A stretch of DNA of 64,000 nt, taken from positions 290,922 through 354,921 of the forward strand of contig NW_026516248.1 of NCBI RefSeq assembly GCF_025602895.1. Direction: 5' to 3'. This DNA comes from Polychytrium aggregatum (lineage: Eukaryota; Chytridiomycota; Chytridiomycetes; Polychytriales). The stretch's first letter is position 1, and every line of letters begins with the position of its first letter. Both the position numbers and the translations under genes were made by a program. The notes below the pieces were generated by a model. That model was given only the letters and a program-made list of their open reading frames with translations. It made no database searches and was not told the origin of the DNA. Of this stretch, positions 253 to 48,000 are shown piece by piece.

Positions 253-866
253 GCTCACCGCGCTTGAAGGCAGCGAGGCAAGGGGCGATATGGAACGCCC
301 TCGAATATGCTCTGTGTCAATCGTCCCGAGCCACGCAGCCAGCGCTGTTTCCTCAGTGGAAATGCAAGGGTGGTCAGAATCCCAACGGCACTATGAAAAA
401 AAGCTGACGTGTAAATTACGCGTTGGCCAATACTTCCCTCGCAAATCCCCCACCGGACTCAGCATAACAAGGAAAAACACGTCTTCTCGCGTTTTGTTTT
501 GCCTTGGGGGTCGCGTCTGGCCACTGAAGCGACCGCGACGGGCTCGGGTCACCCGCATTTCTCCTTGTTCGTCCAGGTTGCTGGCTCCCTGGGTGTCCCC
601 GAACCCGCACTGCCACATCCCGTGGAGCCCTCGGCCAATGGGCTGCTTCCGTTCACGTGACATGGCATCCGAGTCATCCCGGCTTTTCACTGTCTTCCGC
701 GACTCGTTCACTGTCCATGACCCCCGGCTGCTTTCCTGACTCATCTGTGTTCATGGGTCATCAGAGCCTTCGGACTTGGACAAAAACCGGGCATTTCCGC
801 CCCCAGTTGCTTCGTCAATCTCCTCTTGATCCTTTCTCCCCTCGACCTTCTCATCCGACTCTAATC
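253..866. other. no gene seen; DNA between the left repeat and the transposase
   Basis: No convincing coding exon is seen. CACTATG at 389-395 is a possible left end of a CACTA-type element, but it is not supported by a target-site duplication. Confidence 0.5.
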
Positions 867-3800
867 ATGAGTTCAGCCGCTCAACCATCTGGGCACGATC
901 ACCCAAGGCATACTCCATATCCAATATCATCGACCAGGGTACCATCCTCGATAAATAGGGCTCACGATGGGCTTCCCAAGAACAGATCCATCTGTCGTTG
1001 TCGCAAGTGTAGCACCGATTCGCAAGGCTTCAGGATTGTCTCCAGAACGACCTACTACGACCACTTCTATCGCTATGGCTTTCCACCTGGAGTCCCCCCT
1101 GTTCACATGTACTCGCTCAAAGATCCTCAAGAAAACACAGCTGGCCATCTTTCTTCGTTCCCTCACCGTCCTATTACAAGCATATGCGAAAATAACCCCA
1201 ATTTGCGAACTTCGCCGACATTTCATCCCCCAGTGTTGGTGGTAGATGAACTGCGACCACATGGGATAACATCGCAGCGACCTTCATTGGGTAAGACTGA
1301 GCACCTGATATCACATTCTCGCTAAATTTTTGTGTGCGTCACGGTTTCAGTCTTGAGCAATAATCAGTGATCTGTGCTTGGACGCTGCCAGAGCTCACTA
1401 CGAAATGACCAATACACTCTCGATTTGTCCGACTTTGTTTCTTCATCCTTGGCCTGGCCCAAAGGCTCACCCCGCGCATTTGAGCACGAGAGCATGGATA
1501 TCCAAACAGGAGCATCTATTCAGCAATGCACCCAAGACAACGAAGGCCCTGCTCCAGCTCAATTTGAACGCTGCCCTTCGTGGTCGCCAAGCATGTGGGC
1601 ATCGCGGGACTCTGAAGAAGCGTCCATGTACTACGAAGACTCTGAAGACTCTTCGATAGACTCAGAAGACACCACTTCAAGCTCACCGAGAGAATTCGAT
1701 GACATTTCGGGTGAGATATCAACGTCACCCAGCCTGATCGTATCGTCGAATCTTCCTGGTCTTGCTTCAGAGTCCGGTTGACTCATATAAATGCCACGGT
1801 TCACCTTCCAGGACAGTATCCGGATAGCTTCCTCGGCCACTTTCGACTGCTTGAAATGAATGAAGATGATGAAGAAACTGGTGACGAAGAGCCCCGCATA
1901 TCAGATGGTGAGTCAAATTCAAAGGACAGATAGCAATCCGATGTAGCATCCGAATTGATGTATTCACCCGCGGCTTTCCCCCAGATATCCCGCCCTTCTA
2001 TTCGCAGCTGGTCAAGGTGTTGACCGAGTGCAATGTTACCGACAAAGCCATCAAATCTGTCCTTAATCATTGCAACAAATTCCAAGGATTGTCATTACCA
2101 GCTGCACCCAGTCTGTACAAGATCCAAAAGATCATTTGTTGCGAGTGGAACGAGTATCTTCAGAGGCTTCCCTGCTGCCCAAACAGCTGCATGGGATTCG
2201 ACATCAATGATAACCAGAGTCGAATATGCACGTTTTGTGGAGAGGATGCTTATGCGACGGTGAACGAAAAACTTCTGAATGGCGGCATTCAACCACAACT
2301 GAGGCCGATTCAGACCTACAAGTATTTCGATTTTGTTCAGATACTTCAGACACTCTACCGAAATCCAACTATGGCAGAGTTGATGATGTACAGAGCAAAC
2401 AGAGCGAGCGAACCAGGTACTTTCCACTCGTATTATTTCCCAATACTATATTGCTATATGGTGCTCTGAACTCACCAAATCTGAATCTTCAGGCATCATG
2501 AACGACATATTCGATGCCGAATATTACCAGCACCGTTGTAGTCGCTCAATGTTCCAGCAGCCCACCGACGTTGCTCTCGGGCTGCATTTTGATGGCTTCA
2601 ATATCAATCAGAGGTACGCCCGCTCTCTGTTTCAAAATCAGATTATAACCACAGCTGACCTTTGTATCTGGTGTAGGCAAAGCCATCAATCGTGGGGCTT
2701 CATCTTGATCAACTTCAATCTTCCACCTGCTCTGCGCTACAAAAAGGAAAATCTCATTACGGTCTTGCTTACGCCAGGTCCACGATCGCCTCGAGACTTT
2801 GATACATTTTTGAAGCCGTTTTTCGAAGATATGAAGAGACTTGAGACCGGTGCGTAAGCCCCTCTGGTGTGGATCACTTGGTCACTCCACATAATCCTCG
2901 CGAGAGCACGCTGCTGACGGAGCAATGTCTCTCGCTCCCAGGTGTTGAGGCGATAAGGGTCGACAAAAATGGCGTGGAACATTCTTTCACTCTCCGAGGT
3001 CACTTGCTGTACTGCCAGAGTGACATGCCCGGATCCAACAAATTCGGTAAATTTTCTGGGCACACCGCCACGAAGGGCTGTCGTCTCTGCGAAATAACGG
3101 CCACGAGGGCCGGGGGTGCCATGTGCTTCTATGAGCGTGACACTCCCAGTCCATACCGCACCGAAGAGAGTCTGAACAGAATATGGGAGGCCATCGATCA
3201 AGACGGCATGCCCCGAAACGGTACGTTAACGAGACGAGTCAGGGCGTTGTTTTCGACTCCGATGTTAACATTAACTATGTTGATCAGGGATCGTGGGGCG
3301 ACCAGGTGTAACTCAACTTGAGTCCATCGAGCTCAGCTTCTGTCTTCCTCTCGATCTGATGCATGTGATCTCGAACATCGGTCCACTCATGATGGAGATT
3401 TGGAATGGAACGCGGAAGACTCCCTCATCCTCAAGTTTGGACCAAAAGATCACGTCCAAGTGCCTGAAAAAGATCGGAAGGTGGATCAGCGAAGGCAGAA
3501 TTCAGATTCCAACAGGCTTTGGCGCCTCTTGTCGGGACCCTGTCTCATACAAAACCTTCAAAACCGAAGAATGGAAGAATTGGATTATCATGTACTCCCT
3601 ACCTCTGCTCAATGCGGCGGGCTTTCCACTAGAACACTTGTAAGCTCTTGATATTGTACCCTGCTCGAACCGGGGCCCGTCCTACGGTCGATGAGATACT
3701 TGATTCGAATTGATCCTAACAGTGATGCTATTGTGCCTAGATTGGGATGGAGGCGCTTTGTCTATGCCCTTCGATTGATGCTGCTTCCCCAGTTGAATGT

Positions 3801-5130
3801 TGCTCAATGCAATCAGATCGAGAGAAATCTTCAGAGGTTCCAGGAGTACTACACAGAGCAAGTAGCACGAGACAGCAGTCCCTTCACTTGAGGATGTTGG
3901 GCAGCTCACTAATTCTCAATATCTAACCACGTATACTCGAAATGTATTCACCAGGTCAATCGCAAATCTCCCAGAGTCACTCGAACCTCCTCCAGACAGA
4001 GCTCCAGACCTGTCTGGACTTCGTTTGATGAAAACCTACGTGCATCAGCTCCAACACTTGCCCAGGTGCATCCGATTGTTTGGACCCTTGGTATATCAAT
4101 GGCAGTTTGAAATGGAAAGAACCTGTGGTCGCCTGAAGCTCATCGGGCGATCGAAGGTCCATCCAGTGGACAATATGGCCAATCGGCTCGTCCTCCAAAG
4201 CTCTCTGAGCGGTCCAAGCATTGCTCCGAACTTGACCTTGAGAGGAACATCCAGGTTGGGCGAAGACCCTGGGATATGGCCATCCTCCTTTGCAAACAAT
4301 GGGCGGGCCTCGAATCAAGATAGCCGCGGAACCTTGTCTGGCCAGCAGCAAAAGCTGAAGCTACCCTCTGAACAAGTCGCGAAGCTAAAGAGCGCTTATG
4401 CCAGGACGATTTCTGCCAATTCCTCATACGGCTATCGTGAAGCCTTGCAATGTGTCCATTCACTTTGGGATCAGAATTCGGACACTTGCTCCAAACACAC
4501 CAAGATGGATACGGGGGAGCTACATGTCATATCTCAATCACATCGGATGAGCACGGCACATCATCGGATGAACTCTGTTGCGAAGGTAAGGCATTCGGTA
4601 GCACGCGATAGCGAAGCCTCATATGAGCTAATGCATTCTGAATCTACAGGTTTGGACCAATATGCCCGATGCATCAGCAAGCAATCACCCATATTCTTCT
4701 GTCCGCTTCTATCAAGTCCAATATTTCATCAGCCACTCCTTTGATGGAGAAACAACAAACTGGGCATACTGTGTGATTCCAAAGATCAACATCAGATATG
4801 GAGATGACAGTTCAGGATACCGCCCATGCAAAGAGTGTGCTACCTTTCACCTCGACAGCATGGAGTCAACGAATCATATCTTTGTCCCAGTCGATACAAT
4901 CGTTTCTACTGTCGGATACTTCGAGATGGAAGGCGGTGGGTACAGCTTTGCTGCAATTGGAGAGGCAAAGTCAGGCTGATACTTATATCAACCATTCCAG
5001 GTGGCTTTTATATTATCGAGCAAGATCCTCCGATTTGACAAGTCGATGCAAATGTCGCAGGTAGTTGGGCCAAAAAGTGCTTGAGGCCGCTTGATGACGA
5101 AGGGAGTTAGTCCGAACTTGACCCATAGTG
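389..5130 (+). mobile_element. candidate CACTA-type DNA transposon carrying a Tnp2 transposase
   Basis: CACTATG at 389-395 and its reverse complement CATAGTG at 5124-5130 bracket the transposase gene, as expected for CACTA elements. The match does not extend past 7 bases. The flanking triplets (CGG on the left, ACC on the right) do not form the usual 3-bp target duplication. The ends are therefore tentative, although the element's presence is well supported by the gene inside. Confidence 0.35.
867..4978 (+). CDS. Tnp2-type (CACTA/En-Spm superfamily) transposase, multi-exon
   Basis: Several exons on one strand add up to a fungal Tnp2-like transposase. The first exon begins with the ATG at 867 and holds a cysteine cluster (CRCRKC) followed by SRTTYYDHFYRYG, typical of the Tnp2 N-terminus. 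Later exons carry LHFDGFNINQR (about 2580-2613, first acidic residue), GHTATKGCRLC (about 3058-3090), LPLDLMH (about 3344-3364, second acidic residue) and WQFEMERTCGRLK (about 4100-4140, third acidic residue). Clear introns include about 2416-2494 and 2614-2679; the exons join to give the conserved NLPPALRYKKENLI block. The core DDE region shows no stop codon within the exons I joined, so the copy may be recent. The exact last exon and stop are uncertain; a reading frame ends at 4978, but a further short exon is possible. Confidence 0.8.
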
Positions 5131-7444
5131 ACCATATCAGTGTAATGACAGGTCAAGTCGGAAGGTTTGGAATATAAATATCCCCCCGACCACCGCTTCC
5201 TGCCCGCTTCCGTCGTCAGGCTCAAGTCAATACTCCCCTCAGGCCCTCTCTATCCTAACTTCCTCGGCGGGCCCATGAGCCGATCGATGACATAGGTGCC
5301 GTTAAACGCATGCATATTGAGGATGAGCCGCATCATGAATATGTCTCTAATGTTTTTAACTCTAACGCTTCCTCTTTCACTATCTTGAATATGTCTCGAA
5401 TGTAGGAAGCCATCCAAATCCAAGTAAGTCCCTTCATGACGATTGAGTATCATCTGAGAGAGCTCGAAGGCGACGCTTCAACTAACCGCATCGCTCATTC
5501 CCTCCAGATATCCTCGCCCCCATGGGACATTATCTTGATTATTATCATTTCGGGTTTGTTATCACTTGCGTTTTTACTGAACACGGCATATCATACCGCA
5601 TTCTGTTTGCGACACTGAGGTTAAACTGGCTGGTGGAGCAGTGACCACCGCGGGTTTGACCTAATCCTGGACTAGTTAGAACGGCCGAGGATTGCCCCAG
5701 GAGTTCACGGTGCCGCCCAACGGCGGTCGGAACTGGGGTGTCCGAAAGGCAGTTCTCAGAACGGGTCATGGTGAGGGAGAATGAGGATATGAGAGGTTCG
5801 GGGCCGGGAGAAACCGGGGCGGAGGGGTCCCGGAACGGAGCGGGACGGAGCGGGACGGCAAGCGAATGCCAAATCGGGCCAGAGCACGTGTGGGAAGCAA
5901 CGCTGTTGATTGGCTAGCGAGCAGTCCCAAAATGGCATCGTTCGGACGAGGCTGCACCAGACTGTCGGCACACACGTGACTCATTCTGTGTCTTAATGTG
6001 CCTGCTGACCAGGTCCCGAGCCGAACACAGCCACTGTAGAGGGGTCACGTCCTATTTTTTTCATCGTGACGGTGTCCGTTGCATGCAGCCAGTTCAGAAC
6101 GAAACGAGACACTCGCGTCCTTACGGGCGATCCAATAAAAAACGGGACACCCAGGTTTTGACCATGGTCAGAGCATTTCCGCATGCCCTGCGCTCTCACA
6201 CCAGCAAGCCACCACCAACCTCACCACCCACGGACCCCGATCCTCCTCGTCCCCAGTTACATCATATTGTATCTCCCACCACATGCATAAAGAGATGAGC
6301 GATAGGACAGGTAACGATGAGCAACTGGTGAGGGCGTGAAACGTGGTCGTTCCTCGCATCAGGGCGCATGATCCATCATGGAGCGGGCCGGGGCGGATGA
6401 GATAGTGAGCCGGACATGTGGTTTGGGCTTAGGAGATGTGGGGGAAGGGCTGCTGACAATGCCGCTGTCCCCTTCTCCCGGTTGAGAGGGCCAGGTGACG
6501 ATGGTGCCAGGGAACCCGAGTTGCTCTCGATGACGAAAGCACGATTTGGTTGTTGTTTGGGGGAAGAGAGGGGTCATGAATGCTCGGCTCGGCGATGGCA
6601 TGGCGCTTGGTTGATTTGACCGGCTGACCAAACCCACCTTCCCCCAAAACCAAATCACGGTCTCCCACCCACGATGTCGCCCGCATGTTGGGTCCCCTCC
6701 CTCCCCCCTCCTTCTGCTTCTCGCCTTGCCTTTCCCTGGGCCAGCCCTTCGACTGCAAGAGCGAGAGCATCATGTCAAAACAAAACACCTCGTCTTTGTT
6801 CCTTGATCATTACTGAGAGCGAGCGAGAGAAGGGGACAACAACGTCGAGTCACGGAATGTGAGGGAGAGCCGGGGAGGGATGAGTTGGGAAAGGGAACTG
6901 AAGGAGGAAGGCGAGGCACTGCTAACGAGAATTTGGCAATCTATACTGATGGACGGAATCACTAGTATCATTCGCTTCCCTGCAAGCAAGGAAGAGTTGG
7001 GAGGGGATATTTGGGGAGAGGAGAAGAGGAGGGAGATGGACGGGAGGTCGAGACGGTGGTGGAGGAGGGAGTACTATCCAGAGCACTGATGGGGAGGAGG
7101 ATGTTCCTTTTATCGACCAGTCTTCTAAGCAACAGAAACTCCAAAGGAGGCTTCGCCAGAGCGTTTCCCACAATTCCGGAGGGACTTGCCAGTGAGGAAA
7201 CTCCTTGCTGTCGAGCCGAGCTGGCTGTTGGGTTGGTTTCGTTGCTGCTGTCATTGTTGCTGTCATTGTTGTTGTTGGTGGTGGTTCCGCTTTGTTGGGG
7301 GATTCGATGAGCCGCACCGGCCGCCAGTCGGACTAAAAGTCTGTCCGGACAAGCAAGTGCGCCCCAGGGTCAAACGGGCTCGGCCCCGATTTGCAAACGA
7401 AGGGAAAAAGAGCGTAGGAAAAAGAACCGAGAGAAAACGCTGGA

Positions 7445-35169: not shown

Positions 35170-37418
35170 TTACGGCGTCTCGACGCGACGATGGTTAGGA
35201 TATGAGCCAAGGATCTTCACATCCAAGCAAAAGTTCTTTAGCTCCGACACGGCTTCTCTGACGTTTGTGTTATCCACATGGCCCTCCATTTCAATAAAGA
35301 AGATATAGTGCCTGTCCGATACAATTGGCAGAGTACCGAGTCAGATCAGCTGCAGACCGAGAGTTGGGTCTGCTTCGGGCTGGTGGCGGACGGCGCTATT
35401 CCAAGATCCGTCCTCGCGGCAGCTTTGCAGACCCACTACTACAAAGGCGAGTCGACATCACAAGCCCATCCCGATTCACTAAACATGGCTGATCGCAATT
35501 TCCACGATCCAGCTCGCACCCAGCTCGCATCCAAGCGGTTCACGGAGCTTTGATCGCGCCGGTGGTCTCGAACGGCCAGGAGGACAATGCTTACCACAGA
35601 CGCTGACGAGATGGGCGAGAGTCGATTTTGGTCAGGTTGATGTTTTTGTTCTTGATAACGTTCAGGGCATCACAGAGGGCGCCAGGCTGGCGGTGGTCGA
35701 CCGTAAAGTACATAAGGGTACGGTCGTCTTTGGTTGGGCTCTCTGATTTGTCGCCGATGATGAAGAAGCGGGTTGTGTTGTCTGCGGAGACACAGCTTGG
35801 GTGAGCGGACAGGGTCGAAGGCGGCCAAATCCATGATGCCAATCGACTCGAGGATCTCTATGCACGCACAGGTAGTTGCTGAGGAGCACCAACACTGCAA
35901 TCTAAAGGATGTGGAAGGAAGCAGCTGCGACGCATTCACACATGAGACCGAAGGAGGGGCAGATCAACGAATGCGGCGACTCACTCTTCAGGTCCTCGAT
36001 GTTTTTCTCGATAATGTCGACGCCATAAAGCTCGGAGCAGACACGGCTGCAGATGGCCGCAGCGTTCTTCTCTTTGGCAGCCATCTCGGCAGCAAGACCA
36101 GTCGACGCAACAGTGATCCGCTCGGCATGGGGGGCATTTTCTTTGAGCCACCGCTGACACTGGCCGAAAGCCTGGGAGTTCCAACCGGAAAAGGTGAGTT
36201 TCAGGCAAGCAGCTTGCAGCCCTAGGCTGTCGATGCAATCGCTTCGGGTAACGCACCTCGGGATGGCTGTAGATGCGCTTGACATGTTCCAGAGGCGTAT
36301 TGCCGAGGAGACAGTGATGAATAGATAGGTAGTCCTCGGCACGCACTTGGACATTGTTGATGATAAAGCTGTCCAGCGTCTGGGTCACACTCCCGAAGGT
36401 CGAGTTCTCAAAGGGCACCACCCCGTACGTGGCGGCGCCGGAGTCAACAGCCGCAAAGACATCGGCAATGGTGGTCTGCTCGGAGTATCCAACCGAGTCG
36501 CCGAACCGCTCATAGGCCACTTGGTGAGTAAAGGTGCCTTTAGGGCCAAGAAAAGCGATGGTCACATCCTTCTGCAGCGAGATGGATGCCGACATGATCT
36601 CGCGATAGATGGCGTGGACGGCATCGTCAGACAGAGGACCATGGTTCAGCGATTTGATCTGGCGAGTTGGGCGATCGAAAAAACGGCAGAGGAGCGAGCT
36701 CAGCAAGTGCGTCTGGTCACGGTCTCGGTTATGGTGGCAGCCGGCGGCCCGAGTGCAGTACCAGCCCCAAGCAAGTGATACAGCATCGTAAAAGACGGCA
36801 GATCCCACAAACCGAGAGAACGACATGGACAGGACAGCTCTGCGGATGTCCCCACTGTTGCGCGCCAATCGGTGCCAGGACGTTGCGCTTTGGGCATAAC
36901 CCACCTTTTGGTAGACCTCAACTTCTCGGGCGGGGATGTGAACGTGGGTCTTCTGCTCGTCCCTACACAACAGACCACCATTGGTGAAGGGTTAAATACA
37001 ATCTGGCCGGGCGGTATCGCAAACGGCACGGCACACTCGACGCAGGCTTGGACGATCGGTGAGAAGGTCCCATGCAGAACGCCGAGGAGGGTGGCGCCGT
37101 ATCCAGAGAGGGTGTGCTGGAAGAGCCGTACTCGGACAAACCCTTGCGTTTCATCTCGGCTCGTTTGGCCATGCCGATGCCGATCGAGATGTTGGCCCGC
37201 TCGTTGAGCAGGTTGACCAGGCTCTGGTCCACAGCATCGATCTTGAGCCTCAGTCCAGTCAGATCCTGGGCGGGCGGCTCGGCCACGGATGCAGATCCGT
37301 CAACGGTGGGGTTCATGGCAGGCTCGGCGGGCAGGGGTGCTGTTGCTCGTTGTCGTGAAGATCTGGCGGCGGCAAAGGACGAAAGCGGGGACATTTGAGG
37401 TCGGCTGCAGGGTATCAT
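35170..37418 (-). CDS. bifunctional chorismate mutase-prephenate dehydratase (P-protein)
   Basis: Six phase-consistent exons (37418-37132, 36962-36905, 36658-36257, 36171-35985, 35781-35595, 35311-35170) give 420 residues. An N-terminal extension of about 50 residues precedes an AroQ-type chorismate mutase domain: LTGLRLKIDAVDQSLVNLLN, then REVEVYQK and NHGPLSDDAVHAIYREIMSA. The prephenate dehydratase domain follows: IAFLGPKGTFTHQVAYERFG, VVPFENSTFGSV, SIHHCLLG, and the catalytic NTTRFF. An ACT domain ends the protein: PGALCDALNVI, INLTKIDSRPSR and FFIEMEGHV. The enzyme would convert chorismate through prephenate to phenylpyruvate for phenylalanine synthesis, with feedback through ACT. In well-studied fungi the two activities are on separate proteins (ARO7, PHA2); the fused order is the classic bacterial P-protein. 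Six spliceosomal introns show it is an established nuclear gene. Confidence 0.9.
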
Positions 37419-38521: not shown

Positions 38522-40569
38522 TCACGAGCACTTCTTCAGGTGGTTGAGCGGGACATAGGCTCGCTGCCCGGTCTCGCTCTCGGCCAGGGCCCAGCCGTCA
38601 GGCAGCTCCTGGAGCACAACGACTCGCTGTCCAACGGCAATGTCGAGCTCGTCGGGCTGCTCGGCCGGTCGAGCCTGGATGACCTCGCGGAAGTCGAGCT
38701 TGGGGATGGTTGGGATGGCTGAAACGACGGCCGGCGACGACGCACTCGAGCTGAGGGTCGAGAGCCGGCCGGGTGCTGGAGACGCAGCCAGGGCCGGGGA
38801 CGCAGCCAGGGCCGGGGACGCAGCCAGGGCCGGGGACGCAGCCAGGGCCGGGGACGCAGCCAGGGCCGGGGACGCAGCCAGGGCCGGGGACGCAGCCAGG
38901 GCCGGGGACGAGGCCACACTCTCGTACGAAGGAGGGTGGATCGAGTCGACTTTGGAGCTGGGGGAAGTGACGGCGCTGGCTGTTGTGTCTGAGCGAGGTG
39001 CAGGGGTCGACGACTGCGTGGCGGCATCAAAGTTCCCGAATGCCTCACGGTACTTTTCACTGGCCGAGAATGCTTCAGGGCGATCGGGCTGCGAGCGGCT
39101 CGCAATTTTGAGCTGGTCGGGCTGCGGGTGGTCTGCACGATCGGGTCGGTCGACAACGACAACAGGAGGCACCTCTCTGTTGGCCAGTGCCTCTCTGTTG
39201 GCCAGTGCCTCTCGGTTGATCTGAGCCTCTCGGTTGATCTGAGCCTCTCGGTTGATCTGGGCCTCTCGGTTGATCTGGGCCGCGAGACTCTTGTTCTGGG
39301 CTCGGATGCATGCGACAAACACTCCAACAAGGACTATTCCTCCGCCGACAGCGCCGGCAGCGATGATGATCGAGTTGGGGACCGAGCTGTTGGCCGAGCC
39401 GTCGGTCGAGCTTGTTGACGAGCCCGAAGTGGCCGAGGTTGGTGCAAGCGGAAAGCCGCCGTTGGTGGTGACGGCACCTCGGCCGACTCCGACGGTGGTG
39501 GCAGGGAGGAAGGCATTGCCCGTGGTCTGGATCTGCGGCGCCTGTGGGTGAATGGGTGAATGGGTGAGTTGAGTGAGTTGGGTGAGTTGGGTGAGTGTGG
39601 ATGCCGAAGATGGTAATCACAATTGCCGAAGCCAGGGGCTCATGTACAAGTGCGGCCTGTGAGTGAGAGCCAGTGTGAAGCGGCACATGGCGTTGGGTGC
39701 AATCACACTCGACTAGTTGCAGTTGCACTCGACATGGGACTGGTTGCAGCCGCACTCGACATGGGACTGACCGTGACGATGCTTTGGTGGCTGGTGGTCA
39801 CAACAGAAGGAGGAGCGCCGCCGGTTTGAGGGTTCTTGGCGTCCGAGGTGGTGGAGGGGGGCTTGGGGATGGTGGTAGTAGTAGTAGTGGTGGTGGTGGT
39901 AGTAGTAGTGGTGGTGGTGATGGAGGTGACCACATTGATCAAAAATGCCCCATCAGTCGAACATACTACGGGACTTCCCTCACATTCCCCAACATAATAG
40001 CTTCCTGGCTGGATGCCCAAGGGGACCATGATTGGAACTGGGCCATTGAAAGGTGAATGGGTTGGCGTAGTCGGCACCAGAGTGTAGATCACATTCGACC
40101 CGGACGCGGGCTGGACAGGTTGTGAGATCGAACAATATTTAGGCGCGAACGGTGATACACTGCGCTCTCTCGACAACAGTTCATGGGAAGAGATGTGATA
40201 GGATGGCAAGCGAGAGGAGCCTGTTACTCGAGACTTACCCACATATCAATTGTTACCATCACCGGAATATTCAAACCACCAGTCCTAACATTTGTTGGGA
40301 ATAGCCTCGGTACGTTCACGATCACATTGTAATTATTACCGATAACCCATGTGTTCTAAGTCGTTATCAACAGGGGTTGGCAGTGGTTTCAGCGTTGATT
40401 CAGCCAGGTGTCGATCCAGCAGCGAGGCGTCTCAGCCCAGAGCAAGAGCACAGTCGAAGCGATCATACCGTGGTGGAGGAAAAAGTCACATCGCAAGTGC
40501 AGCGTCGAATGAACAAGCTGCCGACGAGCAGCAGGAGCAGCGGGTGCATCATCGCCTTCCCCAGCATCG
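38522..40569 (-). CDS. single-pass membrane protein: KNH-like ectodomain, PPxY motif, C-terminal SH3 (paralogue 1)
   Basis: Exons 40569-40469 (signal peptide MMHPLLLLLVGSLFI), 40355-40239, 40110 to about 39767, and about 39549-38522 are phase-consistent. The ectodomain has NTWVIGNNYNVIVNV and a later block with two cysteines (PGSYYVGECEG, VVCSTDGAFLINVV), resembling Kre9/KNH-type wall proteins. A Thr run and Ser/Thr-rich stalk follow, then a membrane segment SIIIAAGAVGGGIVLVGVFV. The cytosolic part has INREAQ repeats, a PPSY motif that could bind WW domains, eight PALAAS repeats, and a terminal SH3 domain with PDELDIAVGQRVVVL, PDGWAL and YVPLNHL. Its architecture suggests linking the cell surface or wall to cytosolic partners; that role is inference. 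It is a tandem paralogue of the gene at 42250-44437, and its first exon and promoter are identical to the window's left edge. The third donor site is approximate. Confidence 0.75.
38779..38912. repeat. 18-bp coding minisatellite (PALAAS repeats)
   Basis: Eight nearly identical 18-bp units. On the minus strand each encodes PALAAS in the cytosolic tail of the membrane protein, between the PPSY motif and the SH3 domain. Near identity at the DNA level suggests recent expansion. Confidence 0.95.
39172..39290. repeat. 18-bp coding minisatellite (INREAQ/ANREAL repeats)
   Basis: Six to seven 18-bp units of two subtypes. They encode charged hexapeptides just inside the membrane segment of the same protein, and could form a short helical stretch. 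Confidence 0.9.
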
Positions 40570-40776
40570 CGCTCAGAGCTGACGGAGGCAGAGAGGGATT
40601 CGTCCAGACCAAGCGACGAGCCAGACAGAAAAGCTCGAGCAGGTCAAGGGGGGGGGCGAGGGCGACACAATCGAACGAACCACCGCAACAGACCAGTCCA
40701 TGAATTGGTGGATCACCGCTTTGTTCATCAGGCCAAATGGAGACATTTGAAACAGGGACACGCACAGGATCGCGTG
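40525..40776. repeat. 252-bp perfect repeat, copy B
   Basis: Identical to window bases 1-252. It covers the first 45 coding bases of the membrane-protein gene (from the ATG at 40569) and 207 bp upstream. The identity stops abruptly at 40776. Confidence 0.97.
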
Positions 40777-41069
40777 GATTGCTGCGCCTGGGCACTCTTT
40801 CACGAATCCCCTTGCCATGTACATTCCGTATTTGCGATGTATCAATTGCTTCAAGTCACGCGGCCAGCGAGGTTCCCAAATGGGAAAGCGAAAGTGGAGG
40901 TTGTGTATGCGGCGCGATTTTGTCGTGGACAACAATCCATGGCGAGACTGGAGCCGCGATAAGACAACGAGCCAAGACGAATGAGTTGGAGGAGATGAGA
41001 CCATCCGGAGAGCAGAGCAGGGACAACAGCAATGTGGCTGCAAAATTGCAAAAGTGAGGAAAAAGGAAT
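40777..41069. other. spacer between the membrane-protein promoter and the tRNA genes
   Basis: No gene is seen. Weak similarity to the DNA after copy A of the 252-bp repeat suggests an older, longer duplication. Confidence 0.4.
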
Positions 41070-41143
41070 CGCTCCTAGGTGGGCTCGAACCACCAACCTT
41101 CCGGTTAACAGCCGAACGCGCTAGCCAATTGCGCCATAGGAGC
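41070..41143 (-). tRNA. tRNA-Asn (anticodon GTT)
   Basis: A complete cloverleaf reads on the minus strand: acceptor GCTCCTA paired with TAGGAGC, D arm GCGC...GCGC, anticodon stem TTCGG/CCGGA with loop CTGTTAA (anticodon GTT), and T arm GGTGG-TTCGAGC-CCACC. There is no intron. The 3' CCA is not encoded, as usual in eukaryotes. Confidence 0.96.
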
Positions 41144-41147
41144 TGAG

Positions 41148-41220
41148 CGCCCAACGTGGGGGTCGAACCCACAACCTTGAGATTAAGAGTCTCACGCTCT
41201 ACCGATTGAGCTAGCCGGGC
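41148..41220 (-). tRNA. tRNA-Lys (anticodon CTT)
   Basis: Minus-strand cloverleaf: acceptor GCCCGGC against GTTGGGC (two G-T wobbles), anticodon loop CTCTTAA (anticodon CTT), and T arm GTGGG-TTCGACC-CCCAC. There is no intron. It lies 4 bp upstream of tRNA-Asn on the same strand, so the two could be transcribed together. Confidence 0.95.
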
Positions 41221-42249
41221 TGGATGTCTGAGTTATCGGTTGTGACTATCTGACCTCTTCTAGTCCCGGATATCAATTCAGTCGTCCCATTGATCATTCT
41301 GCTCCGTCTACAAATCGATAGCTCCCTCTGACAGCAGACGCATCCAACAAACTACCAGCAACATCGTGTCACCCACCCTCGAGGGCTGCTCCCTGCTGCA
41401 CCCGGTACGGCAACATGCTTGTGAGCGGCTCTCGGCCTCAGCAAATGGCATCGCTTCGACTCTCGTTGGGACCCACCCAATCGATTTGCCCGCCCTGTTG
41501 CCCACATTCAGCAATCGTTGGGATTTTCGGATCGTATGAGGGGTTTGCATTTTCTTATTCATTTTTGGTAGCTGGAGCAGTCAATACATTGTAAAAGGCT
41601 CTTTGCTCGAATTCCATCCCCTCCCATCCATGGCCATGGAAATGGGCAGGGGGAGGGACCAAAGGAGATTTTGAATGACAATAACAGACGAAAGAAATGG
41701 GGAAAACATTGAATCCAGTTGGTGTGAAGCCAAGTGTAAAGCTAAAGTAGGTATGAAGGTTTACAGATAGATCCACTCCAATTAGAATCAAATGGGTAGG
41801 CAGAGAGGGGGGTGAAGATGCGAATAAACGATGGGTGATGATAGACAATATACAAGGGTGAGGGCGGTGAGACTGAAGTGATGTTGCAATCGAGCGAATC
41901 GAGATCGACTGTGACGTAGCTCGAACAGCAGCAGCAACAGCAACAAAACAACAGCAGCCACGAATGAAAAATAGCAACAATGAATGAAAATACTTGATCA
42001 ATGAGAAATCAAAACAGGGGCCGCGAGAGAGCGGAGATTGTGACAAACTTGGGCCGATTGGCTGAACTTGGAGGAAGGTTGCTGGCCGCGCAAGGGCGGT
42101 CGGGGCGTGTGGCTATGAGAACGACTTCATAGAATTGGACACAGTGGCAGATCGACGAATCGCTGTAGATCAGTTCACCTGATCCGTTTCTGTTGGGCTT
42201 TCCAGCCACGGTTTGAAGTCATCTTTACTCTTGAGGACGTGTCAGCTAT
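41221..42249. other. intergenic region
   Basis: About 1 kb between tRNA-Lys and the stop codon of the second membrane-protein gene. No gene is seen; the right part is probably 3' untranslated sequence. Confidence 0.5.
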
Positions 42250-44437
42250 TTACGATAGCTTCCTCAAGTGGTTGAGCGGGACATAGGCCCGCTGCCCGGT
42301 CTCGCTCTCGGCCAGGGCCCAGCCGTCAGGCAGCTCCTGGAGCACAACGACGCGTTGTCCAACGGCGATACTGAGCTCGTCGGGCTGCTCGGCCGATCGA
42401 GCCTGGATGACCTCGCGGAAGTCAAGCCTGGGAAGGCTCGGGATCATCTGGGCCGATCCGGCATAGGAAGGAGCCGAGTTTGAAGAGACAGAGTACACAC
42501 TCGAGTCGCGTGGAGACGTCGTCAGCATGACACTCTCATACGTGGGCGGCTTCGCCGTGACGACGACTGGGCTTCTGGGATCCGGCTGGCTTCCAAATGA
42601 GGTGACCGAGTTGCCGTAGCCGCTGCTGGGTCGCGAATAGTTGCCAGCCGTCTTTGATTCATCCAGGACAAAGAGACCCTGGACCGGAGCCGGGCTGGAG
42701 TGATACGAGCCGACAATGCTGTTGCGGCCGTCGGGGGCAAGGGTGAGACCCGAATGGACAAAGTTTCCGAGAGGCTTCTGAGACGATACAGAGCTCACTT
42801 GGCTGATTCGGTAGTCCGAGTATCGGGCCTGGGGATCGCGAGAGTCCACCACCACCATCGGAGCCGAGACAGTCTCGGATCGCGGGATGTTGTTATCGAG
42901 CTGGTCAACACGCCAGGTAGTGGGCTTGCGGGACCGGGTGCACGAAACCACAACGCCGACAATCACAGCACTTGCGGCAACGATGCCAACGGCGATGATG
43001 ATGGACGAAGTGGAAGAATTGTCGCTGCCCGAGCTCGTTGCGACTCCAGGCTGCGAGGAAGGAAGCAAGGCCGGTGTGGTACTTGTGGTGGTCGCTATCT
43101 CGGCGGTCGAGGTGGGTTGGAAGGCAACGGCGGTCGCCTGAGCAAATATTAGCCATGCGATCGAATGGCGGTATCGTTGGTGAGAAAAATAGAGTGGATG
43201 CATTGGGGTGTAGTGCGTTATGCAGGTGTTAGCCATGCGTCTGTACAAGTTGGAAGCAGGACCGAGTGTGCACTGCGAATCACAAATGGTTCGGTGCAAC
43301 AAGAGCAACAGCTTACCACGGTTGTTGGGTTCTGAGCAGGGGGTGGTGGGACAGGGGCACTGTTTGCTGGAGGAGGAGGAGGAGGAGGCGAGGGAGGAGG
43401 GTGCGAAGGGGGAGGAGGCGAAGGGGGAGGAGGCGAGGGAGGGGGAGGCGAGGGAGGAGCAGCTTTGGATGTGGTGGTGGTGTGTGATGTGATGGGAGGT
43501 TGCCAGGTTGTGGTGGTAGTTGTTGGTGGGGACCAGGTTGTGGTGGTAGTTGTTGGTGGGGACCAGGCTGTGGTGGTCGTTGGTGGGGACCATGTCGATG
43601 GAGGAGGTGGTGCCCCGGTCGTTGGGGGAGGTGGTGCCCCGGTCGTTGGGGGAGGTAGAGGTCCGATCGGCACCACCACAAGCCTTGGATCGAGTTTGGG
43701 AGCGGGAACATTGGGTACGGACTCGACAGTGATACGGACACCAGATATGCTGCAAGTGGGTGCGCGGGACAAGGTGTAGCACACACTCAGGGAGTATTCG
43801 CCTGCAGGTGTATCAGAGGGCACTGTCGCAGCGATATCCTGGGCCCGGGCGGTGGAGGCTTGGACGATGGACGCCAAAGGATATTTGCCGGACGTGCTGT
43901 CGGCGGGCTGCTCGGACGAGTCAACACAAAGGGATTGCGTGGCCAAGCAACGAAGCCAGGCGGATGTTAGGTGGTGGCGCTGTCACCCGAACTCGGGGCA
44001 TCGGAGACAGGGCGAGCACAAACGAACGAACAAACGAACGAACGAGCGAACGAACAAACGAACGAACGAGCGAACGAACGAGCGATGCACATGTGCTGCA
44101 CTTACCACAAGAGCAAGGTCGATTTGATACGTTCCCAGCAACTCGGGAGCGGCAGCCGTCGACTCAGTCCAGGTCAGAGCCACCGTGTGTGTGCTGCCGG
44201 CGGTCCAGTGATCCTGCGAACGGGCATATGAAAGGAAGCGTGAGCCATGGATAACAGTGTATTGTGCGTCGCAAGGCATCCGACACGATGAGCTCCGATG
44301 CACGTCGATGCAATGCCTTCGACAGGGTTGACGCTCACCTCGGTGCCGACGACGGCGAGGACGGGCGAAGGATCCGAGGAGCGCACGCCACCCAGAAGGG
44401 CCAGCAGGCCGAGACTGATGTGGAGCCACTGCTTCAT
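42250..44437 (-). CDS. single-pass membrane protein: KNH-like ectodomain, PPxY motif, C-terminal SH3 (paralogue 2)
   Basis: Exons 44437-44339, 44213-44106, about 43911-43317 and 43137-42250 join in phase to about 560 residues. The signal peptide is MKQWLHISLGLLALLGGVRS. The ectodomain shows DHWTAGSTHTVALTWT and AGEYSLSVCYTL...CSISGVRITV, like Kre9/KNH-type domains. A long Pro/Thr stalk follows, with PPTTGAP, SPPTTTT and PPPPSPPPP runs. The membrane segment is SIIIAVGIVAASAVIVGVVV, with a basic stop-transfer CTRSRK. The cytosolic part has KPPTYESV (a PPxY motif) and ends in an SH3 domain (PDELSIAVGQRVVVL, LPDGWALAES, AYVPLNHL). The SH3 region is nearly identical to paralogue 1, but the ectodomain is not. 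The third acceptor is inferred. Confidence 0.78.
44015..44085. repeat. GAAC tetranucleotide repeat in an intron
   Basis: Runs of AACG/AACA tetramers within the second intron of the membrane-protein gene, close to its 5' splice site at 44105. Confidence 0.85.
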
Positions 44438-45087: not shown

Positions 45088-48000
45088 TTATGCGTGGAAG
45101 AGCCGGCAGCTCTGCAGCTCCTCAAGAGCGTACGCAACATCCTCACCGCTGCGTACACGCCGCAGGTTTTCGCATACCACCTTGGCGAGTGCCGCCGTCG
45201 AGGCCCTCTGAACAGCCTCGATCATCGAGTCGTCGTTCTCCCAGGACTTGTTCCAGGCGTGGATCTTGGACAGCCCCGCAGGCGTGCTGTGCGACATGCT
45301 GCGTGACGCCTGCTGTGGTGACGCTGGGTCGGCCTCATGCTTCAAGATTCTGCGGACCATATCCTCAAGCTCTTGCGCAAGCTTCTTGGGCTCAAGCTCG
45401 ACGGTGCCTTGCTGAAACCAGGTCGAGACAATGTCGATGAACGACTGGTGCTGTGTCTTGCGCCGACGGATGCTGCGCAGCAACGAATATGAAAGCGGCC
45501 TTTGATGCGTCGCCGGCAGCGCCCGGAAAAGCGCAATCGTCTCATCGGTGCTGCCGTGCCGGATCTTGCCCATCGAGCACAGCAAGTGGTGCAGGACCGA
45601 TCCGCTCTCGGGGTCAACCGAGGCGACCAGCACTCGGTTGTGGGAAAGGTCTTCCGGGGACGGGTGCGTGGGGCGCGGATCGAGAGGACCGGAACTGAGG
45701 GCGATCGAGCCAAAGTCGCCTCGCGACGCAGGGCCTGATTCGACAAGCGTCCGGGACTCGTACGTGCCAGCCTTGCGACCAAGCAGATTGAATAGGAACC
45801 ACAGCCCTCGAACCTCTCCGGTCCGACCCATGGCGCTGACGATGCTCCTGAACATCTTGGCGGACAGCGGCTTTTGCTGCTCGACATGGTGGTGCAGCTG
45901 CTGCCAGATGGCCTCGGAGCCCGCGGCTTGACCGCCTGCCCGAGGGACGCCCACGGCCTGCAGGAGCTGAGTGGTGACCGCGCTTGATGTTTGGTGGGCT
46001 CGCAGCTGCCTTAGCCGAGCGATCAGACGAAAGGCATCGGCGATGCGGCCTTGCCGAAGAAACGAGGTCACAACGGCATCGAGAGCACCCCGGGTCGGCC
46101 GGTATCCATCTTGCTCGAGACGGTTCATCCACTCCAGGGCAACCGAGGCCTTGGACTGGATCGGTGCAATCTTGTCCAGGGCCTGAAACAGCCCTGTCTG
46201 TGCCCGTTCTGACGACAATGTGTTGTTCTTCCATGCCTGGATGGCCTTGTAGCATTCGCTGATATACGACAGGGTGGTGCCATTGGAAAACAGTAATGCA
46301 GCGGTGTCGGCGTTGGGGCCCCGCCGATGGCGCCGGACCCCGACCTTGGAGTCCCGTGGTGACGATTCGGCTGGGTAAAGGGCCATGATCCTGGCATATG
46401 TTCGTGAGACTGCCTCTTGATCTTGTCGCTGGATATAGAACCCGAGCAAAGTGTTCAGGAGTTTGAGCGATGGCCGCAGACTGGCCTCTTGCAATTGACT
46501 CAGGCACGTTTCGACAAAGATGACGTCGTCTGCGGAGCAGTTGCGAACAAGATGGGATGCCATGGCATGCGATGGACGCAGTCCGCTGTCCCGCAGTTGC
46601 ATCAGCACTGCGTGCATCGGCCCAATCGGTGGGTTGTGAATGTGGTGAATGTGGTAGATGTGGATGTGGATGTGGATGTGGATGTGGATGTGGATGTGGA
46701 TGTGGATGTGGATGTGGATGTGGATGTGGATGTGGATGTGGATGTGGATGTGGATGTGGATGTGGATGTGGATGTGGATGTGGATGTGGATGTGGATGTG
46801 GATGTGGATGTGGATGTGGTGGATGTGGTGGATGTGGTGTACACGACAGCACCGAGCAAACGATCGTGATGCGCATGGGAGACGATTGAATCGGGACAAG
46901 GCAGGGCCAAAAGACGAAAGTCAGCCCAGCAAAGGTCTCGCAGCATGGATTCTGCGGGCTTGAGTTGGTTTCGCAAACAACCCGTCCCTCACCCCCACCA
47001 TCATCTAGCTAACTCGATTCGGACCAATGCGGCGATTGCAGCTGGACTCACCTGCATCGAACCGATCCGAGACCCATAGCTGGTCGTAGCTCTGGACCAT
47101 CGCAGCGAACGGGAGGCTCGACAGAAGCCTGTGTGTCTGGCCAGCCTCAATCAAGGCCCTTGCATCGTGAACATACTGCTCGAGGATCTTCTCGGCCAGC
47201 GAAACTTCCTGGCAGCTCCTGAGGATCCATGCGGTTGCAGCTGGATAGAGTGGCGCCGGTAGCGAGCGGTCGTGGTGCTCGGAGTTTGGATCGAATCGGT
47301 CGGCGATCGAGCGATAGAGCGATGAAAAGAGCTGGTGCTTGCGCGGAACGCTGCCCTGGGCCTCGATTCCGTCGGCGGCATCACGGATCAGTTGCAAGAG
47401 CTGGGTGTGGCCAGATATATGATCGACCAGAAGCACGGTCGACAAGAGTGACGAATTGAGATTCAATGGGGTTGAGAACAGGCAGAACTCGGTCAGTTTG
47501 TAGCTCGCATTTGCGCCGCGCGGCTTCCAGGAACGAATCTCAGTGCCAGAGCCGGTAGCCAAGCCAAGCCCGGGCTCCAGATGGAGCGCGAGAGTGTTGT
47601 GGTCGATTCGCATCGGGGTGCTGTCGGCCTCGAGTGCATATCAAGGCCGCATGCGGAGATGCCTCTATGAAGCAGACGTGGCTTAAACGAACCTCACGAT
47701 GCGGCTGGCGGCCCCTCGACACTGGATCTGATGCGGACGGGCTGGTGCGTTGGCGAGAGGCCTTTGCGAGATAGAGCAGTTCAGCGACGCCCTTCCAGCC
47801 CTGGATCCGATTGGCCCGCCTGCGCCTCCGCCCCGCTATCCGGGCAGCGTCCAGAGGCGGGAAGACGTATCGGGGAGTGACACGCGATATGAAGTACGGA
47901 AAGTTGTCGAAGGGTTTCGGGTTTTTGTCCCAGGCATTCAGGGCGTAATCGGTGACGGGGACATACATGGTCGAGCTGGTCGTGGTTGCCGGGCGCCGGA

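Follow-up and report, generated by a model that had tools for sequence, protein, structure and literature searches.

An ectodomain cassette in a family of predicted single-pass SH3 proteins of Polychytrium aggregatum

Wall sensors of the WSC/MID2 type are built from a signal peptide, a Ser/Thr stalk, one membrane helix and a cytoplasmic tail, and the membrane adaptors of Rsp5 are membrane proteins with a cytoplasmic PPxY motif. The ectodomain of Saccharomyces cerevisiae Fus1 is glycosylated, and to our knowledge the surface receptors of flagellated fungi are almost uncharacterised. Fus1 itself is described as a single-helix scaffold of the plasma membrane that ends in an SH3 domain (PMC10315666), and this SH3 domain as departing from the canonical surface (PMC5823434). 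Here we analyse two adjacent minus-strand genes, A and B, which lie within a 64,000-nucleotide stretch of P. aggregatum DNA (contig NW_026516248.1; the whole stretch is called the window, and coordinates without a prefix are its own) and encode predicted single-pass proteins with a C-terminal SH3 domain. Their strongest feature, which goes beyond what an earlier note on this DNA had reported, is an ectodomain cassette: gene A and a second gene, A', are nearly identical before and after a block of about half a kilobase that encodes the ectodomain and differs at a third of its sites.

Genes A and B and the cassette between A and A'

Gene B (44437-42250, minus strand) and gene A (40567-38522, minus strand) each have four exons, whose splice sites were picked by eye and verified by translation, the models being made from genomic sequence alone. 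In B, exon 1 (44437-44339, 99 nt) encodes a signal-peptide-like start (MKQWLHISLGLLALLGGVRSSD...), exon 2 (44213-44106, 108 nt) the first half of a KNH-like ectodomain (DHWTAGSTHTVALTW...), exon 3 (43907-43317, 591 nt) the second half with two cysteines (about 43907-43716) followed by a Pro/Thr-rich stalk, and exon 4 (43137-42250, 888 nt) the membrane helix, the cytoplasmic tail, the SH3 domain and the stop. The translation of exon 4 places the helix IIIAVGIVAASAVIVGVVV at 42946..43002 and a PPTYESV motif at 42529..42549, and the SH3 domain runs from LDFREV over 42253..42426. Gene A follows the same plan, with the signal-peptide-like start (MLGKAMMHPLLLLLVGSLFIRRCT...) in exon 1 (40567-40469, 99 nt), the first ectodomain half (NTWVIGNNYNVIV...) in exon 2 (40355-40239, 117 nt), the second half with two cysteines and a poly-Thr stalk in exon 3 (40110-39772, 339 nt), and helix, tail, SH3 domain and stop in exon 4 (39541-38522, 1020 nt); its helix IIIAAGAVGGGIVLVGVFV is read at 39314..39370, its PPSYESV motif at 38915..38935 and its SH3 domain, again from LDFREV, at 38525..38698. 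Both SH3 domains exceed the curated cut-off of Pfam SH3_1 (PF00018; 22.9 bits), with 24.4 bits in A and 25.7 bits in B.

The six introns of A and B are all GT..AG and in phase 0, one of them splitting the ectodomain in each gene, and both models are open from ATG to the stop behind the SH3 domain without internal stops. The earlier note's reading of this region is therefore confirmed in order and place by the translated models and the SH3_1 scores. These give a signal peptide, a small ectodomain with W..G and, late in it, a pair of cysteines, a stalk of Thr/Pro, a single helix, PP[ST]YESV and a C-terminal SH3 domain, the PPxY motif being put on the cytoplasmic side from the domain order. Since in-frame phase-0 joins lead from signal peptide to SH3 domain in A and B and in three further genes presented below (A', L031 and L029), it is unlikely that the ectodomain and SH3 exons belong to separate genes. 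Two coding repeats differ in length between haplotypes, one of AASPAL units in exon 4 of A (38700-38935) by 54 nt and one in exon 3 of B (43317-43907) by 24 nt.

The assembly containing the window comprises 64.7 Mb in 418 contigs, and many genome matches are paired, as though both haplotypes had been assembled. Gene A' (locus L035) is on contig C112, 36 kb from the second allele of A, and the second allele of B is on the same contig. From first to last clustered difference between A and A', the variable cassette of A covers 39934..40494 (minus strand), and its borders coincide with the points at which the signal peptide ends and the poly-Thr stalk begins. Inside it (between 40500 and 39925) 192 of 575 aligned sites differ; outside it, over a stretch that opens 207 nt ahead of the start codon and runs past the stop, only 6 of 1713 do. 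Indels are left aside in these counts: intron 3 varies in length, and the tail repeat differs by 54 nt. Intron 2, which is inside the block, is 34.6% diverged, compared with 4.4% for intron 1 and 1.4% for intron 3, so that more than selection on codons alone must have shaped the block. Near-identical patches survive within it, such as the GIQPGSYYVG codons. A search for a donor with the A' ectodomain retrieved only A' and A, and ectodomain queries with either gene against their own genome returned only these two at expectation values (E) up to 1.

A second block, of 90 bp, lies upstream of A (40636..40725, minus strand), where at 41 sites the window has the state of A' and differs from its own allele on C112; the closest sites showing the reverse pattern lie at 40778 and 40494. 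As the alleles of A and B hardly differ elsewhere, this upstream block was replaced in one copy. The simplest reading of the sequences would be a conversion between A and A', although the C112 allele may instead have been replaced from another source. For the ectodomain cassette, too, we infer gene conversion as the probable mechanism.

The helix-plus-SH3 family and its ectodomains

Queried with the part of B from the helix to the end, the genome gave 65 matches with E no higher than 0.01, both haplotypes being counted. Our survey of open reading frames (ORFs) took in 41 sequences, that is, the window and 40 loci (L numbers), some overlapping or allelic, and yielded 30 ORFs matching SH3. A membrane helix is present in the same ORF in 18 of the 30; because the loci were selected by SH3 similarity, this share is no genome average. 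With L047, which was added later, these 18 make up the 19 helix-plus-SH3 genes read here, the other 12 SH3 ORFs being uncounted. Complete models with phase-0 introns, checked by translation, were obtained for A' and L031, which have four exons and the same plan as A and B, and for L029, which has two exons; for L030 the last two exons were modelled and the 5' end was not found. In several members there are two SH3 domains and PPxY is absent. At C56:9714-18978 (partly L032) four frames, each with a pair of SH3 matches, follow one another in tandem; the run recurs on C190, which presumably represents the other haplotype.

Pairwise identity among six members (L030 being represented by ectodomain exon 3 only) was 59-100% for the SH3 domain and 40-100% for the helix, and fell to 7-41% for the ectodomain. 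Variable ectodomains on constant tails, as foreseen earlier, are thus borne out within this genome for helix and SH3 domain. PPxY occurs in 8 of the 19 helix-SH3 tails, where shuffling of residues leads one to expect 1.96, and the looser [PL]PxY in 12 of 19 (2.64 expected). All six genes whose SH3 domain is of the LDFREV type found in A and B carry PPxY, against a summed shuffle expectation of 0.28, a count resting on five independent tails as those of A and A' are nearly the same. PPxY is thus more frequent in family tails than chance would give. WW domains are encoded in the genome, three of them within 0.7 kb (C1:348014-348731), and it is plausible that the family PPxY recruits a WW-domain ligase, as the earlier note had suggested.

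SH3 domains of the family, 14 domains from 12 genes, were aligned with a Src SH3 reference; L021 and L025 are among those of the 19 genes outside this set. The three canonical tyrosine places (in ALYDY and the C-terminal SNY) are replaced in all 14, and the W and P are retained; some replacements are mild, with F at the last place in the two-SH3 members and at the first place in L033. Judged by these tyrosines, the aligned domains, as translated, do not belong to the canonical PxxP-binding class. With the canonical surface altered at its tyrosines, the idea that these domains bind Pro-rich partners finds little or no support. No entry named Fus1 was among the matches listed (60 of 212) for the SH3 domain of B against the PDB.

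Across the ectodomains of 10 aligned members the W and G are present in all, and P and two C in nine; the two late cysteines noted earlier thus hold for nine members and fail in one. Eleven family ectodomains were scanned with Kre9_KNH (PF10342; curated cut-off 24.6 bits). Most of the profile is covered by the spliced ectodomain of B (E 0.001, 20.2 bits) and by that of L029 (E 0.0026, 18.9 bits), both below the cut-off, and the remaining nine, A included, gave no match. The cut-off is exceeded by L049, a locus fetched for its match to this profile and without an SH3 match. The ectodomain of B retrieved B itself; its five further matches, none with E below 0.07, include the family member L036 (E 0.36). 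To the eye, the ectodomains of L025, L021 and L047 are of different types, which in L047 is combined with a PPSYDSI-SH3 tail; a Pfam scan of these three gave no named match. Against PDB sequences the best match of the family profile, at E 0.08, was a bacterial sialidase, which was not used.

One KNH ectodomain is found on two kinds of protein. L029, which is present on both haplotypes (C246 and also C398), has an intronless stretch for signal peptide and KNH domain, then a stalk, a phase-0 intron and an exon for helix, PPPYAAV and SH3 domain. Over 427 bases from the ATG it is 97.9% identical to L046 (C223), and similarity is undetectable before the ATG or beyond the domain. In L046 the same KNH domain is followed by a stalk rich in Pro, Ala and Ser, and the C-terminus is hydrophobic and by eye resembles the signal for a glycosylphosphatidylinositol (GPI) anchor. 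A near-identical predicted ectodomain is therefore carried by two different kinds of protein.

A proposed receptor repertoire and other explanations

A diversified outside, together with an ectodomain placed on two kinds of protein, suggests a modular repertoire for sensing or recognition. We propose, at about even chances, that A and B are single-pass surface receptors or adaptors with an exchangeable ectodomain cassette on a constant helix and SH3 domain, and with turnover through PPxY. The ectodomain, small and either a KNH domain or a diverged relative of one, would be held on a Thr/Pro stalk that may be O-glycosylated and may span the wall, and would most likely make contact with glycan of the wall, with substrate or with a partner cell. 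The membrane helix would link the stalk to a flexible tail with PPxY and a terminal, non-canonical SH3 domain; the latter could keep a fixed cytoplasmic partner at the contact site, in the manner of the Fus1 scaffold, and PPxY would permit turnover via a WW-domain ligase. The ectodomain cassette could be exchanged by recombination between genes, or be held different while its flanks homogenise. The earlier interpretation as a surface-signalling module is in this sense partly supported. With its cassette-like outside and its constant helix and SH3 domain, the family supplies a concrete and testable set of receptor candidates, whether for contact with the wall, for attachment or for the recognition of kind, and it displays the exchange of ectodomains in a fungus down to the nucleotide. 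A wider proposition, which we regard as doubtful, is that an early-diverging fungus has a repertoire of receptors with swappable ectodomains on a constant helix-SH3 tail, PPxY being confined to one subgroup, for recognising partners, self or substrates, generated by conversion and exon shuffling and sharing domains with GPI-anchored wall proteins; it would be a fungal counterpart of the modular recognition receptors of animals.

Several observations weigh against the proposed receptors. PPxY is absent from 11 of the 19 helix-SH3 genes and is therefore not the constant part, and the middle of the tail (14-35% identity among the six members, A/A' apart) is as variable as the ectodomain, so that constancy covers helix and SH3 domain only. 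Over 110 cassette codons of A and A', synonymous divergence (dS) is 1.13 and nonsynonymous divergence (dN) 0.55; these values mark the block as old and its flanks as recent or homogenised, and leave positive selection on the cassette, which we had considered, unsupported. No ectodomain difference was found between the haplotypes for A and B, and in the compared stretches of L029, L030 and L031 the identity of the two haplotypes is 99.7-99.9%. The helix-PPSYDSI-SH3 genes L047 (C113:439000-441900) and L048 (C113:447050-449950), a few kb apart, were considered as a second cassette pair and proved to be simply an inverted duplication, with 99.7% identity along the whole 2.9 kb. The KNH-like nature claimed for the ectodomain stands on the sub-threshold match of B, but the ectodomain of A has no Pfam match at all and a comparison of the family ectodomain profile with KNH proper was not significant. 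Structure prediction, which had been recommended for the ectodomains, gave for L029 a nearly all-beta model that is poor (predicted local distance difference test, pLDDT, 56) and that found nothing in the PDB at E 0.001 or better.

The same data could be read without any special module, as duplicated adhesin-like genes in which the ectodomain is just old and fast and neutral gene conversion has homogenised the flanks. The old synonymous divergence of the cassette, the block replacement in non-coding DNA upstream of A and a mid-tail as variable as the ectodomain all fit such genes, but cassette borders at the signal-peptide end and the stalk start, the presence of one KNH domain in two sorts of protein and an SH3 domain retained in the six members compared make this explanation unlikely. 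Sensors of wall integrity or substrate of the WSC/MID type, in which stalk and ectodomain sense strain or glycan and the tail signals through the SH3 domain, would account for the Ser/Thr/Pro stalk and single helix, for the KNH-type matches of B and L029, below cut-off as they are, and for a KNH domain held in common with a GPI-anchor-like protein. However, the Pfam scans of the family pieces gave no WSC match, the wall sensors known to us lack an SH3 domain and such a role has no need of cassette exchange, and we consider these sensors an improbable answer as well.

PPxY in all six close members and in 8 of 19 genes overall, and the cluster of three WW domains on C1, would suit membrane adaptors of a WW-domain ligase, which PPxY would bring to cargo bound by ectodomain or helix, the SH3 domain linking to endocytic actin; with the motif missing from 11 of 19 helix-SH3 genes, and so not part of what is constant, this seems quite an unlikely answer. 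Receptors for cell fusion or kind recognition like Fus1, whose variable ectodomains would discriminate between partners and whose SH3 domain would organise the machinery of fusion or rejection, share the order of one helix and a C-terminal SH3 domain with Fus1 as given in PMC10315666, and the non-canonical SH3 surface as given in PMC5823434, and the cassette resembles recognition repertoires. Nevertheless the genes compared in this assembly have no allelic variation in the ectodomain, dN/dS is about 0.5 and the likeness to Fus1 is one of description, so that we think receptors of this kind rather unlikely too. Exchangeable-ectodomain receptors or adaptors on a constant helix and SH3 domain remain the explanation that we prefer.

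Genomic setting and comparison with described systems

Two tRNA genes on the minus strand, for Asn (41070-41143) and Lys (41147-41220), separate A from B. Beside the two genes are minus-strand frames with matches to prephenate dehydratase and, below cut-off, chorismate mutase (35984-36991), and with a weak match to ATP13 below cut-off and a long His/Ile repeat (45091-46920). At 389-6068 the window haplotype has a 5.68 kb insertion that is absent from C112 and thus heterozygous; it is flanked by a 4-bp ACGG duplication, ends in CACTATGAAAAAAA and CACGATGAAAAAAA, and contains a frame (3866-4741) matching DUF4218 (E 7.7e-5, below its cut-off). We take it to be, probably, a CACTA-like DNA transposon. 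A profile search of the genome found matches to radial-spoke proteins and many to chitin synthase 2, the latter profile also responding in bacterial controls; together they fit a flagellated fungus, and the flagellar gene matches suggest that the host probably is one.

A search of open-licence literature by title and start of abstract did not retrieve this architecture, nor do the excerpts of PMC4102429, PMC10315666 and PMC5823434 describe it. Among described systems, the WSC/MID2 sensors resemble A and B in their succession of signal peptide, stalk, helix and tail, but a WSC match is absent from our scans and A and B have a C-terminal SH3 domain. The Rsp5 adaptors share the cytoplasmic PPxY, whereas the present family adds an SH3 domain and an ectodomain cassette, with ligase binding as a proposal. 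Kre9/KNH-like proteins (PF10342) are approached by the ectodomains of B and L029, which match most of the profile, and by the L029 domain in its likeness to that of L046; unlike them, the scores are below cut-off, the nine other ectodomains do not match, and the domain is fused here to a helix and an SH3 domain. By analogy, Fus1 would be the closest functional model for the family, since Fus1 and its fungal orthologues, as described, have one helix and a C-terminal SH3 domain with a deviating surface. In contrast to Fus1, to which they are likened by description, the genes analysed here form a large family of paralogues that has a cassette, an ectodomain marked by W..G and two cysteines and, in a subgroup, PPxY. 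The kind of protein is thus a known one, that of single-pass SH3 surface proteins, and the surprising part is the ectodomain cassette.

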